Positions 9,978 through 19,033 of a DNA stretch of 64,000 nt are shown here, piece by piece. A program made the translations under genes and the position numbers. Source of the DNA: Pelotomaculum thermopropionicum SI (GTDB lineage: Bacteria > Bacillota > Desulfotomaculia > Desulfotomaculales > Pelotomaculaceae). The stretch covers positions 992,001-1,056,000 of the forward strand of contig AP009389.1 of the NCBI GenBank assembly GCA_000010565.1. Reading direction: 5' to 3'. The notes below the pieces were generated by a model, which had not been told where the DNA came from, did no database searches, and saw only the letters and a list, made by a program, of their open reading frames with translations. Each line of letters opens with the position of its first letter. Positions within the stretch are counted from its first letter, which is position 1.

Positions 9978-10976
9978 ATGAATATGCTGGTTTCCTGGAA
10001 TACAACCAACGCCTGCAACATGTACTGCAAGCACTGCTACCGCGACGCCGGGGCAAAGGCGGCGGAGGAACTGAGTACGGAGGAGGGCCTGGCCTTAATC
10101 GACCAGATAGCCGGCGCAGGGTTTAAGATAATGATCTTCAGCGGCGGCGAGCCGCTTATGCGCGACGATATCTTCACCCTTGTGGCCCGCGCCCGGGAAA
10201 GGGGCCTGCGGCCGGTCTTCGGCACAAATGGCACCCTGATTACGGGCGAAACGGCGCGGCGGTTAAAGGAGGCCGGGGCCGCAGTGATGGGGATCAGCCT
10301 GGACAGTGTGGATCCAAAAAGCCATGACGACTTCCGGGCAACTCCCGGGGCCTGGCAGGGGGCGGTGGATGGAATGCGTGCCTGCCGGGAGGCCGGGCTT
10401 CCTTTTCAGGTTCATACCACGGTGATGGGCTGGAACAAGGACGAGGTGGAAAGGCTGACCGACTTTGCCGTCCGGATGGGGGCGGTGGGCCATCACATCT
10501 TTTTCCTGGTGCCTACCGGCCGGGCGGTGGGCATTGCAGAGGAATCGCTTAAAGCCGGGCAGTACGAGGAGTTGCTGCAGAGGATCATGAGAAAGCAGGC
10601 CGAGGTGAAGATCGAGCTGAAGCCTACCTGTGCCCCCCAGTTCATGCGGATAGCCTCTCAGATGGGGGTCAAAACCCGCTTCAGCAAGGGTTGCCTGGCC
10701 GGCATAGCCTACTGCATCATCAGCCCCAGGGGTGTGGTTCAGCCCTGCGCCTATCTGGACATACCGGCCGGAAACGTGCGCCAGGCTGGTTTTGGGGATA
10801 TATGGCATGAGGCCGGAATTTTCAAGGACCTGCGCACCGAAGAGTACGGCGGGGGGTGCGGGATCTGCCGTTATAAAAAGGTGTGCGGCGGTTGCCGCGC
10901 CCGCGCCTATTTCTATTACGGCGACTACATGGCGGAAGAACCGTGGTGCCTTTACCGCGAGCGGAAAGGGCGCTGA
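9978..10976 (+). CDS. ahbD: Radical SAM heme b synthase
   Basis: 332 residues. C13-x3-C17-x2-C20 (CNMYCKHC) is followed by the IFSGGEPLMRDD motif. A C-terminal auxiliary cluster region has CLAGIAYC, CAYL, CGICRYKKVCGGC cysteines. It matches NirJ2/AhbD, which oxidatively decarboxylates the two propionates of Fe-coproporphyrin III to vinyls, giving heme b. The very short N-terminus before the cluster is typical. The start is an ATG at 9978 after GGGAGG. It is followed 2 bases after its stop by ahbA. Confidence 0.9.
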   Translation: MNMLVSWNTTNACNMYCKHCYRDAGAKAAEELSTEEGLALIDQIAGAGFKIMIFSGGEPLMRDDIFTLVARARERGLRPVFGTNGTLITGETARRLKEAGAAVMGISLDSVDPKSHDDFRATPGAWQGAVDGMRACREAGLPFQVHTTVMGWNKDEVERLTDFAVRMGAVGHHIFFLVPTGRAVGIAEESLKAGQYEELLQRIMRKQAEVKIELKPTCAPQFMRIASQMGVKTRFSKGCLAGIAYCIISPRGVVQPCAYLDIPAGNVRQAGFGDIWHEAGIFKDLRTEEYGGGCGICRYKKVCGGCRARAYFYYGDYMAEEPWCLYRERKGR

Positions 10977-10978
10977 TC

Positions 10979-11437
10979 ATGAAGCTGGATTTAATCGACA
11001 GGAAGCTTTTAAACCTGCTCCAGGCCGGTTTTCCCCTGGTGCCGGAGCCTTACAGGGAACTGGGAGAAGCGCTCGGCATTTCCGAAGAAGAGGTTATCGC
11101 CAGAATCGGCCGCATGCTGCAAAGCGGCGTCATCCGCCGGCTGGGCTGCGTTTTCGACTCGCGCCAGCTGGGCTACAGCGGCGTTCTGTGCGCCATGAAT
11201 GTTGAAGAGGGCAGGGTGGACGAAGTGGCGGAAGTGGTTAACTCTTTTCCAGGTATAACCCACAATTACCTGCGGGAACATCCCCGCTACAACATGTGGT
11301 TTACCCTGCTGGCCGGGTCGGATCAGGAAATTGAGGCAATCCTGGAACAAATCAGGGAGCGCACCGGCATAAAAGAAGTTATTGCCCTGCCTGCGGAAGA
11401 TGTGTTTAAAATCCGGGTTAGCTTTGACCTTGAGTGA
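10979..11437 (+). CDS. ahbA: Siroheme decarboxylase subunit A
   Basis: 152 residues of the Lrp/AsnC-like NirD/AhbA family, starting at ATG 10979, two bases after the ahbD stop. An N-terminal winged-helix-like part (about 1-60, ending GVIRRLGCVFDSR) precedes an RAM-like domain with GITHNYLREHPRYNMWFTL. AhbA with AhbB decarboxylates siroheme to 12,18-didecarboxysiroheme. Alone it could be taken for a regulator of the AsnC type; the location between ahbD and ahbB makes the enzyme role far more likely. Confidence 0.88.
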   Translation: MKLDLIDRKLLNLLQAGFPLVPEPYRELGEALGISEEEVIARIGRMLQSGVIRRLGCVFDSRQLGYSGVLCAMNVEEGRVDEVAEVVNSFPGITHNYLREHPRYNMWFTLLAGSDQEIEAILEQIRERTGIKEVIALPAEDVFKIRVSFDLE

Positions 11438-11446
11438 GGTGTGGCG

Positions 11447-11923
11447 ATGCTGACCGAACAGGACAAGCGGGTGATCCGCGTTTTGCAGCGGGGCCTGCCC
11501 CTCGAAAGCCGCCCTTTTAAAGCAATGGCGGAAGAATTGAACATGACCGAAGAGGAGCTCATAGATAAAATAAAACAATTTATAAAGAACGGTCAGATCA
11601 GGCGGTTTGGCGCGACGGTCCGCCACCAGGACGTGGGTTACGTGGCCAATGCCATGATCGTCTGGGATGTGCCTGACGACAGGGTTAAAGAGGCAGGCCG
11701 GATAATGGCCGGGTTCGGGGAGGTAACCCATTGCTACCAGCGCCCCCGCCTGCCCGGCTGGCCTTACAACATCTTTACGATGGTGCACGGAAAGACCAGG
11801 GAGGAGTGCATCCGGGCCGCTGAAATGATTTCGCAGGCTACCGGGGTGGGCAGCTACCGGCTGCTGTTCAGCACGGCGGAATTAAAGAAGAGCAGCATGC
11901 TGTATTTTGAACAGGCAACATAA
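11447..11923 (+). CDS. ahbB: Siroheme decarboxylase subunit B
   Basis: A paralogue of the upstream ahbA product, with [17 protein letters not shown] and a C-terminal half containing [13 protein letters not shown]. These motifs are typical of AhbB/NirG-type proteins. I chose ATG 11447 (158 residues), 5 bases after GAGGTG; a GTG at 11441 in frame would overlap that ribosome site. It forms the heterodimer with AhbA. It ends 20 bases before the hemL start. Confidence 0.87.
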
Positions 11924-11943
11924 AAATGCTGGAGGTTGGCACA

Positions 11944-13248
<1,305 letters not shown>

Positions 13249-13281: not shown

Positions 13282-13310
13282 TTGAAAATGAAACCGGAAA
13301 GGTATATAAT
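13282..13310 (+). promoter_or_regulatory. Promoter of the hydrogenase-maturation operon
   Basis: TTGAAA (13282-13287) and TATAAT (13305-13310) are separated by exactly 17 bases. It lies in the gap after hemL and would start a leader of about 190 bases. Confidence 0.85.
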
Positions 13311-13317
13311 TAGTAAG

Positions 13318-13505
13318 TAGTTAAGTATTTCACAAAAACCTGAGGGGCACGCGCCGCCGGCGCGGACCGGAGGGTCATTTTTCACGCAAGCTCTGCGAAG
13401 AAAGGGTTTTCCCCGCTCTCAAGGAGAAAGGCGGCAGGTGTTATGGCTTTATCGGCCCTTTTTTCGCATGGCGGAAAAAGGGCCGTTTTATTTGGGGGTG
13501 GTAAT
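13318..13505 (+). promoter_or_regulatory. Structured leader with antiterminator/terminator switch before the hyd operon
   Basis: The leader holds a GC hairpin (GCGCC/GGCGC near 13352-13364). Bases 13395-13406 (GCGAAGAAAGGG) can pair with 13456-13467, with one G-U pair, and enclose a small hairpin (about 13412-13433). Bases 13453-13485 form a 15-bp terminator stem that uses 13456-13467 in its 5' arm. The two folds exclude each other, the usual layout of a riboswitch or attenuator. I do not recognise the sensing domain. Confidence 0.65.
13453..13493 (+). terminator. Attenuator-type terminator in the hyd leader
   Basis: A 15-bp stem (13453-13467 with 13471-13485, loop of 3) is followed by TTTTATTT. 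It lies 13 bases before the first start codon of the operon, so it should be conditional. Confidence 0.8.
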
Positions 13506-13760
13506 TTGGAGCGGCGCATAGGGGTTATTGGAATAGTAGTGGAGGACCGGGACAACGCTGCCAAGAGGATCAACGACATACTCAGCGAACACGGCGAAAT
13601 TATTGTTGGAAGGATGGGCGTGCCGTACCGGGAGAAAAACATTTCGGTCATTTCCCTGATCATTGACGGCTCGACGGATGAGATAGGGGCCATGACCGGG
13701 AAGCTCGGCGGCTTAAAGGGCGTCAGGGTGAAATCGGCGCTCGTTACAAAAGGGATATAA
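13506..13760 (+). CDS. TM1266-type iron-only hydrogenase system regulator
   Basis: A small ACT/NikR-C-like protein of 84 residues (TTG start at 13506 after GGGGGTGG). It begins LERRIGVIGIVVED and contains AKRINDILSEHGEIIVGRMGVPY and a GGLKGVRVKSALV end. This matches the small putative regulator that accompanies [FeFe]-hydrogenase maturation genes (TM1266/TIGR03959 family). An in-frame upstream ATG (13443) would place the start before the terminator stem and is less likely. It is the first gene of the hyd operon. What it binds is unknown. Confidence 0.88.
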   Translation: MERRIGVIGIVVEDRDNAAKRINDILSEHGEIIVGRMGVPYREKNISVISLIIDGSTDEIGAMTGKLGGLKGVRVKSALVTKGI

Positions 13761-13775: not shown

Positions 13776-15194
13776 GTGGAATACCGCATTGAAAAGGACC
13801 TGCTGGGAGAGATAAAGGTGCCCAAAGAGGCCTATTACGGGATTCACACCGTAAGGGCCTGCAACAACTTTCCGGTTTCCGGGCTGAGGACGCACCCGGC
13901 GCTGATCCGGGCGATTGCCCGGGTGAAGCAGGCGGCGGCTCTGGCCAACATGTCCGCGGGGCTGCTGGACCGCAGGGTGGGGGATGCAATCTGCCGGGCC
14001 GCCGAAGAGGTCGCCGGCGGCGGACTGGCCGACCAGTTTATTGTGGATCCTTTTCAGGGCGGGGCGGGAACCTCTACCAACATGAACGTGAACGAGGTCA
14101 TTGCCAACCGGGCCATCGAATTGCTGGGGGGGCAGAAAGGGGACTACCGCCTGGTGCATCCCCTGGAGCACGTGAACCTCTCCCAGTCCACCAACGATGT
14201 TTACCCTACCGCCCTGCGGGTGGCCGCCATTGGGATGGTCCTGGAGCTGAGCGATTGCCTGGCCGGACTGCAGGCGGCCTTCCAGGAGAAGGAGGCGGAA
14301 TTTGCAGGGATTTTAAAGGTGGGCCGTACCGAAATGCAGGACGCCGTGCCGGTTACCCTGGGGCAGGAGTTCAGCGCCTTTGCCGAGGGCATTGCCAGGG
14401 ACCGCTGGCGCCTGTACAAGGTTGAGGAAAGGCTGCGCCAGGTCAACCTGGGCGGAACGGCGGTCGGCACGGGGCTGAACGCCGATCCCAAATATATTTA
14501 CGCGGTTATTGAGGAACTGCGGGCCATTACCGGCTACGGGCTGGCCAGGGCGGAAAACACCGTTGACCTGACCCAGAACGCCGATGTGTTTGTTGAAGTT
14601 TCCGGCCTTTTAAAAGCGGCCGCGGTGAACCTCTCGAAGATTGCCGGGGACTTGCGGCTGCTCTCGTCCGGGCCGCTGGGCGGACTGGCCGAACTGAAAT
14701 TGCCGCAGGTGCAACCGGGGTCTTCGATCATGCCCGGCAAGGTCAACCCGGTAATACCAGAAATGGTTACCCAGGTTGCCTTCCAGGTAATGGGCAACGA
14801 TCAGGTTATTGCAATGGCTGCGGCGGCGGGACAGCTGGAATTGAATGCCTTCATGCCGCTCATAGCCCACAACCTTTTGCAATCCCTGGAGTTGCTTATA
14901 AATGCCGTTAACATTTTCAGCGAGAAGTGCGTAAAAGGCATAAAAGCCGACGAGGAGCGCTGCCGGCGCTGGCTGGAGGAAAGCCACAGCTTTATTACGG
15001 CCCTTACGCCGCACCTGGGTTACGACCGGGCGGCGGAGCTGGTGAAAAAGGCAATGGCCGAAAAAAGGCTGTTGAGGGAGGTAATTATCGAATCGGGCCT
15101 GTTTACGGCCGGTGAATTGGAGCTGATATTTACCCCCGGCGAACTGACCAGGCCGGGTGTGGCCGGGGCAAAGCTTTTGGAAAAGAAAGGGTGA
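13776..15194 (+). CDS. aspA: Aspartate ammonia-lyase
   Basis: 472 residues (GTG 13776 after GCGGAGGA). It belongs to the aspartase/fumarase superfamily, with TSTNMNVNEVIANRA, the signature loop GSSIMPGKVNP (catalytic serine region) and VNLSQSTNDVYPTA. The aspartase-type N-terminus (RIEKDLLGEIKVPKEAYYGIHTVRA) favours AspA over class II fumarase. It deaminates aspartate to fumarate and ammonia. It lies between the hydrogenase regulator and hydF, with hydF starting 4 bases after its stop. Ammonia for the H-cluster bridging amine, or fumarate for the reductase encoded at 50 kb, are possible roles. Confidence 0.93.
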   Translation: MEYRIEKDLLGEIKVPKEAYYGIHTVRACNNFPVSGLRTHPALIRAIARVKQAAALANMSAGLLDRRVGDAICRAAEEVAGGGLADQFIVDPFQGGAGTSTNMNVNEVIANRAIELLGGQKGDYRLVHPLEHVNLSQSTNDVYPTALRVAAIGMVLELSDCLAGLQAAFQEKEAEFAGILKVGRTEMQDAVPVTLGQEFSAFAEGIARDRWRLYKVEERLRQVNLGGTAVGTGLNADPKYIYAVIEELRAITGYGLARAENTVDLTQNADVFVEVSGLLKAAAVNLSKIAGDLRLLSSGPLGGLAELKLPQVQPGSSIMPGKVNPVIPEMVTQVAFQVMGNDQVIAMAAAAGQLELNAFMPLIAHNLLQSLELLINAVNIFSEKCVKGIKADEERCRRWLEESHSFITALTPHLGYDRAAELVKKAMAEKRLLREVIIESGLFTAGELELIFTPGELTRPGVAGAKLLEKKG

Positions 15195-15198
15195 TGAA

Positions 15199-16434
15199 AT
15201 GAGCGTAGGCAGCCTGAATGAAACGCCGCGCGGCAGCAGGCTTCACATAGCCATATTCGGCCGGCGCAACGCGGGCAAATCGAGCCTGATTAACGCCTTA
15301 ACCAACCAGAACATTGCCATTGTGTCGGATGTGCCCGGCACCACAACGGACCCTGTGTACAAGTCGATGGAGATACTTCCAGTGGGCCCGGTGGTAATTA
15401 TTGATACCGCCGGCATTGACGACGTGGGCGAGCTTGGCCAGTTAAGGGTAAAAAAGACCATCGGCGTGCTCAACAAGGCCGATTTGATGGTCCTGGTCAT
15501 AGATCCGGGCCAGGACGCCGGTGATTACGAATTGGGGATCATCAAGAAGGCGAAGGAACAGGGTGTGCCGGTGGTGGGAGTGCTGAACAAAATCGACTTG
15601 AACCCTGCCGTAACCCCGGCCGAGCTGGAAAGCAGGCTGGGCATTAAGGTTGTGCCGGTAAGCGCCGTTACCAGGCAGGGGATTGAAAACCTGAAAAAAG
15701 AGATGATCCGGTCGGCCCCCAAGGAGTGGACCGCTCCGACCATCATCGGCGATCTGATCAGCCCGGGAGACATAGTGGTGCTTGTCGTTCCCATTGACCT
15801 GGCGGCGCCCAAGGGCAGGCTGATTTTGCCCCAGGTGCAGACGATCCGCGATATCCTGGATAACGACGCCTGCGCTCTGGTGGTAAAGGAGAGGGAACTG
15901 AAAAAAGCCCTTTCGGATCTGAGCCGCAAGCCCAGGATAGTGGTGACCGACTCCCAGGCCTTTTTGAAAGTGGACGCAGACACGCCGAGGGATATCATGC
16001 TGACCTCCTTTTCAATCCTGTTTGCGCGTTATAAGGGCAACCTGGAGGCGCTGGTGGCGGGGGCAAAGGCGGTGGAGAGCCTGAAGCCGGGCGACCGGGT
16101 GCTTATTGCCGAGGCCTGCACTCATCACCGGGTGGCCGACGACATCGGCACCGTCAAAATTCCGCGCTGGCTGCGCCAGAAGGTTGGTGGCGAGCTCCAT
16201 TTCGACTGGTCGAGCGGCATCGAGCTGCCGGAAAACCTCGGGCAGTACAGCCTTGTCGTGCACTGCGGGGCCTGCATGATTAACCGCAAGGAAATGCTGC
16301 ACCGGATCATGCAGGTGCAGGCGGCAGGGGTGCCAATTGTGAACTACGGCGTCCTGATAGCCTACGTGCACGGGATCCTGAGGCGGGCGCTGTCGCCCTT
16401 CCCTTCGGCCATGCGGGTGCTGGATGAGCAGTGA
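15199..16434 (+). CDS. hydF: [FeFe]-hydrogenase maturation GTPase HydF
   Basis: 411 residues from ATG 15199. The N-terminal GTPase domain has the P-loop GRRNAGKSS (residues 21-29), DTAGIDD and LNKIDL. The C-terminal cluster-binding domain has CTHH and, about 50 residues later, HCGAC, the C-x-H / H-C-x2-C ligand pattern of HydF. HydF is the scaffold on which the diiron subcluster is assembled and from which it is handed to the hydrogenase. It is in the same operon as hydE and hydG. Confidence 0.96.
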   Translation: MSVGSLNETPRGSRLHIAIFGRRNAGKSSLINALTNQNIAIVSDVPGTTTDPVYKSMEILPVGPVVIIDTAGIDDVGELGQLRVKKTIGVLNKADLMVLVIDPGQDAGDYELGIIKKAKEQGVPVVGVLNKIDLNPAVTPAELESRLGIKVVPVSAVTRQGIENLKKEMIRSAPKEWTAPTIIGDLISPGDIVVLVVPIDLAAPKGRLILPQVQTIRDILDNDACALVVKERELKKALSDLSRKPRIVVTDSQAFLKVDADTPRDIMLTSFSILFARYKGNLEALVAGAKAVESLKPGDRVLIAEACTHHRVADDIGTVKIPRWLRQKVGGELHFDWSSGIELPENLGQYSLVVHCGACMINRKEMLHRIMQVQAAGVPIVNYGVLIAYVHGILRRALSPFPSAMRVLDEQ

Positions 16435-16498: not shown

Positions 16499-17578
16499 GT
16501 GAGAACAGATTTTGTAAGGGCGCTCGAGCGCGCCGCCAACCTGGAGGAACTGTCCAGGGATGAGCTGGCCGTCCTTATTAGCGCAGACGAAGAGGAAAGC
16601 GCTGCCCTTTTCGATTGCGCCGACATGATGCGCTCCCGCTTTATGGGAGATGAGGTGCATTTAAGAGGAATTATCGAGTTTTCAAATATATGTTCCAGCA
16701 ACTGTTATTACTGCGGTCTTAGAAAGGGTAACACAGCCCTGAAAAGGTACCGCATGAGCAAGGCGGAAATTCTTGAAAGCGCCCGCAAGGCGGCAGTCCT
16801 GGGCTGCCGGACAATCGTCCTTCAGTCGGGGGAGGACCGGTCTTACCCGGCCGGGCTGCTGGCGGAAATTGTTGCGGAAATTAAGTCTGAGTTAGACGTG
16901 GCAATTACGCTGTCCGTAGGGGAAAGGCCGCGGGAGGACTACGCCCTGTGGCGGGAGGCCGGCGCCGACCGCTACCTTTTAAAGCACGAAACCTGCGACG
17001 GAAAGCTCTTCAGCGAACTGCGCCCGGGCACCGTGCTGGAGGAAAGGCTGCAAAGGCTTGCGTGGCTGCGCGAGCTGGGCTACCAGGTCGGTTCCGGCAA
17101 CATGGTCGGCCTACCAGGGCAGACCGTGGAAACCCTGGCCGGAGACATAGTTTTAATGCGCGAAATGGAAGTAGAAATGGCCGGCATAGGCCCCTTTGTG
17201 CCGAACCGGCAAACCCCGCTGGGCAGCTGCCCTGGCGGTACTTTGGAATTGACTTTAAAAACGCTGGCTGCCGCCAGGCTGGCCCTGCCGCGCACGCACC
17301 TGCCGGCCACTACCGCCACGGCTACCATCGACGCGCTGGGCCGGGTAAAGGCGCTCAGGTGCGGGGCAAACGTAATCATGCCAAACATGACGCCGCTGAA
17401 ATACCGCGCCAGCTATTCCATTTACCCGGGCAAGACCGGCCTGGAGGATACTCCGGAGGAAAGCTACGCCAAGGCCGTTAGAATGGTTGAAAGCGCCGGG
17501 CGAAAGGTGGGAACCGGATACGGGCATTCTTTAAGGCACCTGGAGAAAAAGGCAGAGGCACAGGCACAGGCGGTATAA
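16499..17578 (+). CDS. hydE: [FeFe]-hydrogenase maturation radical SAM protein HydE
   Basis: 359 residues (GTG 16499). The radical SAM motif is C65-x3-C69-x2-C72 (CSSNCYYC). The typical HydE/BioB-like barrel follows with LQSGEDRSYP and GSGNMVGLPGQT. HydE processes the mononuclear iron precursor made by HydG. The start follows the hydF stop by 64 bases, with no terminator seen between. Confidence 0.95.
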   Translation: MRTDFVRALERAANLEELSRDELAVLISADEEESAALFDCADMMRSRFMGDEVHLRGIIEFSNICSSNCYYCGLRKGNTALKRYRMSKAEILESARKAAVLGCRTIVLQSGEDRSYPAGLLAEIVAEIKSELDVAITLSVGERPREDYALWREAGADRYLLKHETCDGKLFSELRPGTVLEERLQRLAWLRELGYQVGSGNMVGLPGQTVETLAGDIVLMREMEVEMAGIGPFVPNRQTPLGSCPGGTLELTLKTLAAARLALPRTHLPATTATATIDALGRVKALRCGANVIMPNMTPLKYRASYSIYPGKTGLEDTPEESYAKAVRMVESAGRKVGTGYGHSLRHLEKKAEAQAQAV

Positions 17579-17626
17579 GGTAAACGGCCTGAAGAATTTT
17601 TAAAAAAATTAAAGGAGATGACTTTT

Positions 17627-19033
17627 ATGGCTGCATCCCAGGCTTACTTTATTGACGACAAGGTAATATTCGACCTGCTGGAAGAGGCTAAGAACGCCCC
17701 GGCCGGGGAGGTGGAAAGGATTATCGGAAAAGCCGCGCTTTCGGAAGGGCTTACCCCTGCCGAAGTGGCGGTGCTGCTGCAGGTCGACGATCCCGGCCTG
17801 CTGGAAAAAATTTATAGGACGGCCTATCTGGTTAAAGAAAAAATCTACGGGAAGCGGATCGTCTTTTTCGCCCCCCTGTACATCAGCGACTACTGCGTAA
17901 ACAACTGCTATTACTGCGGCTACCGGCGGGACAACAAGTTTCCCCGCAGGAGGCTGAGCATGCAGGAAATCAAGGACGAAGTGACTGTGCTGGAAGAGAT
18001 GGGCCACAAGCGCATCGCCCTGGAGTGCGGGGAGGACCCTGTCAACTGCCCCATTGACTATGTACTTGACGCCATAAACGCCATTTATTCGGTTAAAGAA
18101 AAAAACGGCAGCATCAGGCGGGTGAACGTAAACATCGCGGCGACTACCGTGGAGAACTACAGGCTGCTGAAGGAAGCCAGGATAGGCACTTACATCCTTT
18201 TCCAGGAGACCTACCACCGCCCGACCTATGCCAGGATGCACCCGTCCGGCCCGAAGAGGGACTACGACTGGCATACCTGCGCCATGGACCGGGCCATGGA
18301 GGGAGGCATTGACGACGTTGGAGTGGGAGTGCTTTTCGGGTTGTACGATTACAAGTACGAAGTGCTGGGGCTGCTGTTCCACGCCCTGCATCTGGAAGAG
18401 GTGTACGGGGTAGGGCCGCACACCATATCGGTGCCGCGCTTAAGGCCCGCCCGCGGCGTGACCCTGGAAAACTTCCCGCACCTGGTTTCCGATGCGGACT
18501 TTAAAAAGATTATTGCCGTTCTCCGGCTGGCCGTACCTTACACGGGAATGATCCTTTCCACCAGGGAGCGCCCGGAGTTTCGCGATGAACTGCTTTCCGT
18601 CGGCATATCCCAGATCAGCGCTGCCTCCTGCACCGGAGTAGGGGGCTACCGCAGGGAGAAGGAGGGCGCTCAGAACGGGGAGGAGGCGCCCCAGTTCAAC
18701 GTTGAAGATCACCGCTCCCTGGACGAGGTAATCAGAAGCGTCTGCCGCTCCGGCTATATTCCGAGTTTCTGCACTGCCTGCTACAGGAGCGGGCGGACCG
18801 GCGACCGCTTTATGGCCCTGGCCAAAAGCGGGCAAATCCAGAACGTGTGCCAGCCGAACGCCATCATTACCTTCAAAGAGTTTCTCGTTGATTACGCCTC
18901 GCCTGAAACGCTAAGGGCCGGAGATGAGGCAATTGCCAAGCATCTGGAACTGATCGAGAACCCGGCCGTGCGGCAGAAGGCAATAGAAAGGTTGGCCCAG
19001 ATTGAAACCGGGCAGAGGGATTTTTACTTCTAA
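17627..19033 (+). CDS. hydG: [FeFe]-hydrogenase maturation radical SAM protein HydG
   Basis: 468 residues from ATG 17627, nine bases after AAAGGAG; an in-frame ATG at 17618 is next to the ribosome site and less likely. The radical SAM cysteines are C90-x3-C94-x2-C97 (CVNNCYYC). The C-terminal C-x2-C (CTACYRSGRTGDRF) and a later cysteine bind the second cluster. HydG splits tyrosine and makes the CO and CN ligands. It is the last gene before a terminator. Confidence 0.96.
   Translation: MAASQAYFIDDKVIFDLLEEAKNAPAGEVERIIGKAALSEGLTPAEVAVLLQVDDPGLLEKIYRTAYLVKEKIYGKRIVFFAPLYISDYCVNNCYYCGYRRDNKFPRRRLSMQEIKDEVTVLEEMGHKRIALECGEDPVNCPIDYVLDAINAIYSVKEKNGSIRRVNVNIAATTVENYRLLKEARIGTYILFQETYHRPTYARMHPSGPKRDYDWHTCAMDRAMEGGIDDVGVGVLFGLYDYKYEVLGLLFHALHLEEVYGVGPHTISVPRLRPARGVTLENFPHLVSDADFKKIIAVLRLAVPYTGMILSTRERPEFRDELLSVGISQISAASCTGVGGYRREKEGAQNGEEAPQFNVEDHRSLDEVIRSVCRSGYIPSFCTACYRSGRTGDRFMALAKSGQIQNVCQPNAIITFKEFLVDYASPETLRAGDEAIAKHLELIENPAVRQKAIERLAQIETGQRDFYF

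Follow-up and report, generated by a model that had tools for sequence, protein, structure and literature searches.

Genes of the locus

The window, which is the whole stretch of 64,000 nucleotides analyzed here, covers positions 992001 to 1056000 of the single-contig genome of Pelotomaculum thermopropionicum SI (3,025,375 bases). It contains, on the forward strand, a leader followed by an operon in the order TM1266-aspA-hydF-hydE-hydG and then by a presumably Rex-like gene. TM1266 (13506 to 13760) has a TTG start and encodes an 84-residue protein of the TIGR03959 family of putative regulators (119.8 bits, against a cut-off of 60.8), with matches to PF21699 and NikR_C. Next come aspA (13776 to 15194; PF00206 and PF10415), named aspartate ammonia-lyase from its operon context, and hydF (15157 to 16434; PF18128 and PF18133), whose true start is probably located 3' of 15157. 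The two radical SAM proteins encoded after hydF, at 16499 to 17578 (PF04055) and 17618 to 19033 (PF04055 and PF06968), are taken to be the maturases HydE and HydG, respectively, from their positions in the operon.

A profile search identifies a class-III aminotransferase (hemL-like) gene directly 5' of the leader. The reading frames at 9978 to 13248, which we presume to be possible haem genes, resemble, by eye, radical SAM and AsnC-type proteins, and then the hemL-like aminotransferase. A selenocysteine tRNA gene is found at 1839 to 1932.

Anatomy of the leader

A simple scan finds a sigma-70-type promoter, TTGAAA-17-TATAAT, at 13282 to 13310. It has 11 of the 12 consensus bases, and 0.2 promoters this good are expected in shuffled sequence; transcription would start at about 13317. 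The transcript contains two modules. Module 1 (13339 to 13374) folds into a hairpin interrupted by a single CCU-GA...GA-GGG internal loop, a half-site, and has conserved, covarying pairs in 37 sequences. Module 2 (13391 to 13426, as matched by the dyad model R3 described below) is a GA-rich pseudo-dyad with two CUG(A/C)-N4-RAGG strands. Its 5' strand doubles as the 5' strand of an antiterminator, in which 13394 to 13408 form 15 unbroken pairs with 13454 to 13468. The latter stretch lies inside the 5' arm and loop of an intrinsic terminator (13453 to 13492, simple scan), which consists of a 15-pair stem at 13453 to 13485 and the U-rich tail UUUUAUU. The original prediction of a promoter, an antiterminator and a 15-bp terminator before TM1266 agrees with what is found at the locus, its competing stems are conserved and covarying in relatives, and its boundaries for the antiterminator, 13395 to 13406 with 13456 to 13467, were essentially right.

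When the RNA is folded as far as 13470, the antiterminator is the minimum-energy structure (-49.4 against -43.1 kcal/mol with the dyad forced), whereas for the full leader the terminator is the more stable (-65.2 against -60.4). Holding the dyad should, therefore, turn the operon off. Four Thermotogae copies (L085, L094, L096 and L104) have GAGGAGG as the 3' dyad strand, a few bases 5' of a TM1266 start codon, so that holding the dyad there would hide the ribosome site. For both kinds of copies, this direction of control is what the anatomy of the RNA suggests.

The antiterminator pairing was compared among 100 leaders. The module 2 strand scores on average 20.1 against its own downstream region, versus 17.2 against those of other copies and 15.8 against its own region after shuffling; none of 10,000 permutations was as good, in a test uncorrected for relatedness. 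A strong score (at least 20) is reached by 47 of the 100, and in a few of those the paired stretch lies well 3' of the terminator region. When the 100 possible partners are ranked, the own strand has a median rank of 20.5. Examples of the covariation are TGCGAAAAAGGG/CCTTTTTTCGCA, TGCGCCAAAG/CTTTGGCGCA and GCGACCAGGGG/CCTCTGGTTGC. The leader thus carries a conserved and mutually exclusive terminator and antiterminator, as does a transcription attenuator.

A translated leader starting with the ATG at 13443, in frame with TM1266, was set aside. The terminator sits within the same stretch, the matching stretch varies in length among relatives, and a ribosome site, GGGGGUGG, is located directly 5' of the TTG at 13506.

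Conservation and distribution

The folding energy of the leader is only modestly unusual (z = -1.98, equally low in 5 of 200 shuffles), so the case for the leader rests on its conservation. TM1266 matches were gathered from 60 relatives, 50 of them matching at E≤0.001, paralogues included, and from the best 80 of 108 loci in a genome collection. This gave 110 upstream regions, or 100 after removal of 10 duplicates, and module 2 is recognized by a strict pattern in 41 of these 100. Covariance model R1, built from 15 relatives with the window excluded, recovers the leader at 13336 to 13428 with 46.0 bits (E = 9.6e-8 over 543 kb), and finds nothing else in the 3.03-Mb genome at E≤0.1. Model R2 was built from 37 sequences. 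In its alignment, 93.5% of the cells are paired, versus 76.7% after shuffling and 39 to 69% when the partners are slid by 1 to 3 columns; there are 124 double changes (35 in shuffles), with a covariation of 0.471 (0.173 in shuffles), all of these counts being inflated by the fitting of the alignment to the structure. In these covariance searches, of the kind proposed originally, the competing stems prove to be conserved in relatives, with covariation in both the R2 stems and the antiterminator.

At E≤0.02, R2 has matches in 69 of the 113 genomes of the class and in 50 of 398 genomes drawn from the phylum, in total 117 places in 108 genomes; as the models were trained mostly on copies adjacent to TM1266, detection may be biased. 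Of these places, 109 precede TM1266, aspA, hydE, hydF or hydG, and the other eight comprise five before ABC transporter operons, two contig ends (L120 and L226, without assignable context) and one false positive. Where no sequence was fetched, the context was taken from the TM1266 positions in the search of the relatives.

These counts bear on one alternative, namely, that the leader is an ordinary terminator after hemL with some chance complementarity and no switch. Terminators are often found between operons, and the modest folding energy would suit one. However, this terminator is preceded by a promoter, its stems and the antiterminator covary, and 114 of the 117 matches are located before hyd or TM1266 genes (109) or ABC transporters (5). 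An ordinary terminator or chance fold is hardly credible and was rejected on conservation. By computational comparison, the leader is a real, widespread, conserved cis-regulatory RNA.

The pseudo-dyad core

The core of the leader is module 2, a pseudo-dyad in which both strands read CU-G(A/C)-N4-(A/G)A-GG. When copies from distant lineages are compared by reading, the dyad is apparent in Thermotogae, Syntrophus, KSB1, Auribacterota, Syntrophomonadaceae and Clostridia. All 27 aligned dyads have identical flanking C-G and U.G pairs, and N4 covaries with its partner, a picture favored by selection because poorly pairing dyads were omitted from this alignment. These 27 belong to a hand-picked set of 34 dyads in the 100 upstream regions and were used to build the general model R3; five of the seven dyads omitted from it (L024, L067, L078, L093, L108, L080 and L090) pair poorly. 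A test of N4 pairing on all 34 gives 3.44 of 4 positions with the own partner versus 1.84 with swapped partners (0 of 20,000 shuffles as high), even though five dyads, as delimited, pair at no more than 2 of the 4 positions. The 30 sites found by R3 give 3.67 versus 1.74, and the 24 of them that are not identical to any of the 34 give 3.63 versus 1.70 (0 of 20,000 shuffles in either case), albeit with sites that come from a model that rewards pairing.

A strict dyad pattern matches 31 of the 100 upstream regions and none of their mono-nucleotide shuffles. A second pattern is insensitive, finding the motif in 1 of 3 control stretches from TM1266-containing genomes and in 0 of 13 from genomes without TM1266, so R3 was relied on for detection. 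R3 recognizes the dyad of the window with 24.4 bits as its sole match in the genome at E≤10. That copy is a weak, degenerate member of the family, with a middle stem of 2 pairs. A kink-turn, which has a 3-nt bulge beside tandem G.A pairs, does not fit the 27 aligned dyads, whose GA loops lie opposite one another with no such bulge.

In a riboswitch, the RNA alone would bind a small molecule or metal that favors the terminator, candidates being an H-cluster precursor, an Fe-CO-CN synthon, iron or a sulfur compound, and TM1266 would be merely coregulated. The highly conserved unpaired bases and the fixed architecture with the terminator fit this model, and the conserved GA loops would equally suit a small-molecule or metal site. 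Against it, the center of the motif varies freely in sequence, and the modules differ among copies in number and arrangement. A variable N4 center combined with dyad symmetry suits a homo-oligomeric protein.

Comparison with known RNA families

A search of the whole window with the 4227 Rfam families at gathering cut-offs gives no match over the leader, and no family covers the element when the window leader is searched at E≤10. In 20 relatives, the same gathering cut-offs give two matches, both outside the leaders, and no family lies over the element in the leaders of L104 and L007 at E≤5. The statement in the original prediction that no known riboswitch class matches holds for the window and for the relatives tested. 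Matches to mir and snoRNA families, as well as a weak antisense PyrG-leader match in L007 (26.8 bits, against 65), were set aside as chance. Like the riboswitches in Rfam, the leader is a conserved 5' element with an expression platform that works by termination or ribosome-binding-site occlusion, but it matches none of their families and shows an apparent dependence on TM1266.

The proposed attenuator resembles those of PyrR, TRAP and HutP, where a trans-acting protein binds the leader RNA and thereby selects the terminator or the antiterminator; PyrR autoregulates its own operon. There is no sequence relation: the PyrR binding site (RF00515) scores 19.4 bits on the leader (E = 1.8), against a gathering score of 54. 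The pseudo-dyad GA motif and the NikR_C-like protein family are further differences. Searches on TM1266, on RNA leaders of hyd genes and on structured RNA near hydrogenases, in a library without most subscription papers, listed no description of such a leader, and the word hydrogenase is absent from the main texts of three structured-RNA catalogues (PMC8632094, PMC2864571 and PMC6429828).

Genes controlled by the RNA

Gene contexts were surveyed at 109 loci, a slightly different set that includes one match by R1 only. TM1266 is present in the fetched stretch at 86 loci, and other hyd genes come first at 15. Among these 15, the first gene after the RNA is hydG in L159, L181, L203, L204 and L221, hydE in L199, L210, L213 to L215, L217 and L218, and aspA in L188 and L216. 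None of these genes is found at the remaining 8 of the 109, which represent four ABC transporter operons, two contig ends and two false positives. Both false positives, G077:C139 (R1 only, L193) and G014:C2 (R2, E = 0.005, L195), are weak and overlap a longer reading frame. The RNA is thus a conserved structured element in the 5' leaders of a coherent regulon, as expected of a riboswitch-type leader. The original assignment to the H-cluster maturation operon is borne out, although it was too narrow, as the RNA is also found before hydE, hydG, aspA and ABC transporter operons.

Operons for sulfonate/nitrate-type ABC transporters lie behind the RNA in L175, L180, L223, L224 and L202, and may hint at the compound that is sensed or required. 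In L202, the RNA is followed by the transporter operon and then by TM1266 and hydE; its binding protein exceeds the SsuA (aliphatic sulfonate) family cut-off, with 213.5 bits against 163.5. Three other transporter proteins tested are similar to sulfonate/nitrate-type families, with scores below the cut-offs. The variety of gene orders, as in riboswitch regulons, and the transporter targets, which are compatible with control by a substrate or product, would also suit a small-molecule riboswitch.

A table for Thermotoga neapolitana in PMC7039931 lists similar values for the TM1266 orthologue, hydG and hydE (5.98, 6.39 and 7.52, respectively) and 1.28 for hydF, as would be expected if the first three genes were controlled together. 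The association of aspA with hyd genes is already known, and ammonia-lyases supply nitrogen for the bridging ligand, according to PMC11736057.

Several loci depart from the common arrangement. In three of them (L225, L190 and L299), TM1266 and aspA are separated by a unit that has a terminator of its own. A dyad directly 3' of TM1266 and before the next operon gene is seen in L225, L190 and L299, as well as in G344, G296, G172, G127, G243 and G272. In L129 (G006), the leader is followed by joined fragments of aspA, which retain only its start and end, and then by hydF, with TM1266 on another contig; this looks like an apparent deletion within aspA. In L029, the interval from TM1266 to aspA contains a second RNA element of the operon, a TwoAYGGAY RNA at 1847 to 1912 (46 bits, against a cut-off of 43). 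A cobalamin riboswitch is found on the reverse strand at 291 to 465 of L096, near a Thermotogae TM1266-hyd locus.

Co-occurrence with TM1266

TM1266 (E≤1e-15) is encoded in 191 of the 398 genomes of the phylum sample, and the HydF tetramer domain is found in 226. All 50 genomes with an R2 match encode TM1266. Among genomes with HydF, the RNA is found in 48 of 179 with TM1266 and in 0 of 47 without it (Fisher p = 4e-6, with ancestry, which confounds this co-occurrence, left uncorrected). Where an RNA copy is not beside TM1266, the gene is present elsewhere in the genome in 16 of 16 cases checked.

The more general model R3 was applied to the same 47 genomes and to 80 hand-chosen members of the 131 R2-negative genomes with both HydF and TM1266. 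In the 80, it has matches in 35 genomes at E≤1 and in 30 at E≤0.05; 28 of the 30 best matches are located upstream of TM1266, hydE or hydG. In the 47, six matches at E≤1 are spread over four genomes, none with a recognizable hyd gene within 1.5 kb, and the single match at E≤0.05 lies inside a 531-codon reading frame. The contrast at E≤0.05 (30 of 80 versus 1 of 47) has a Fisher p of 1.3e-6. Conversely, many genomes with HydF have TM1266 and no detected RNA: 131 of 179 by R2, and 50 of the 80 scanned by R3 at E≤0.05.

In five mixed families (f7, f33, f52, f84 and f145), at least one TM1266-containing member has the element (only weakly in f7, E ~0.1), and members with HydF and no TM1266 lack it, except that G367 of f33 has weak R3 matches (E = 0.17 and 0.72). 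Other mixed families are uninformative: f21, f108 and f110, with no element in the R3-scanned members that have TM1266; f57, in which one such member has only a weak R3 match (E = 0.27); and f38, in which three scanned members with TM1266 lack the element, though G393 and G492 carry it. The latter two genomes have no HydF match and contain RNA-TM1266-ABC transporter cassettes (L201 and L207), so that TM1266 may also act outside [FeFe]-hydrogenase maturation or share a substrate with it.

In this sample, the element is found only with the protein, the pattern expected of a TM1266-dependent attenuator, and its confinement to TM1266-containing genomes among those sampled indicates that the RNA and TM1266 probably work as a pair. 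These correlations are more readily explained by a protein-RNA pair than by a riboswitch acting alone, which does not need the dependence seen in the 0 of 47 genomes with HydF and no TM1266. We consider a small-molecule riboswitch the main rival, though an unlikely one; under it, TM1266 could be a mere member of the regulon or the maker or carrier of the ligand. It is distinctly less probable that some other protein, or the maturation machinery (such as apo-HydF or a radical SAM maturase), reads the attenuator. The position of the RNA before hydE, hydF and hydG themselves would suit such a reader, but the RNA was not found in the 47 HydF genomes without TM1266, and the two RNA-bearing genomes without a HydF match do have TM1266.

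The TM1266 protein

The protein encoded in the window has a NikR_C-like domain (PF08753, 25.2 bits), and a profile search gave no match to a recognized DNA-binding domain. Positions 4, 36, 66 and 76 are basic (Arg or Lys) in 97 to 100 of 100 sequences, which favors the proposed recognition of the RNA. The nearest solved homologue is TM1266 itself (PDB ID 2NZC; E = 3e-18, four chains), whose record reads "hypothetical protein" and names neither a function nor RNA. The C-terminal domain of NikR is similar, with weak PDB matches (E = 0.2 to 0.8). However, TM1266 has no match to the ribbon-helix-helix DNA-binding domain of NikR, and its aligned region is without the His/Cys stretch that provides the nickel ligands in NikR. 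We know of no RNA-binding member of the NikR_C-like protein family.

Proposed mechanism

The leader is probably a TM1266-dependent transcription attenuator, in which TM1266 would hold the dyad and thereby let the terminator form. With no protein bound, the antiterminator would form by pairing of the 5' dyad strand with the 5' arm of the terminator, and the operon would be transcribed. We infer that the pseudo-dyad duplex (CU-GA-N4-RA-GG in both strands) is recognized by TM1266, the product of the first gene of the operon, and that the state of the protein is set by some signal. Bound TM1266 would hold the dyad, the antiterminator could not form, the terminator would fold, and TM1266-aspA-hydFEG would be off. 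In the Thermotogae copies, where the dyad contains the ribosome-binding site, translation would be blocked instead. As for the original description of the leader as riboswitch-like, its conserved terminator and antiterminator outside Rfam stand, while the comparisons among genomes favor TM1266 as the partner. The suggested tie of the signal to iron, redox or the H-cluster is not supported as stated, with no evidence either way.

In a broader form of this model, TM1266 would be the founding member of an RNA-binding attenuator family built on the NikR_C fold, reading a two-fold symmetric tandem-GA duplex with a free N4; across several phyla, termination or ribosome-site occlusion would then control a sulfonate-type transporter as well as the assembly of the H-cluster. 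We regard this as an even call. For TM1266, a putative regulator with a solved structure and no activity named in its records, the results offer a defined candidate RNA target, a regulon and a testable mechanism, and they tie sulfonate-type ABC transporters to H-cluster metabolism. They also add an RNA class with an unusual dyad motif that is absent from Rfam. A practical use would be to control H2 production genetically in syntrophs and thermophiles.

Many genomes encode a second, more distant TM1266-like paralogue with ~25 to 35% identity, of which the NCBIfam family CPF_0552 is a weak relative.
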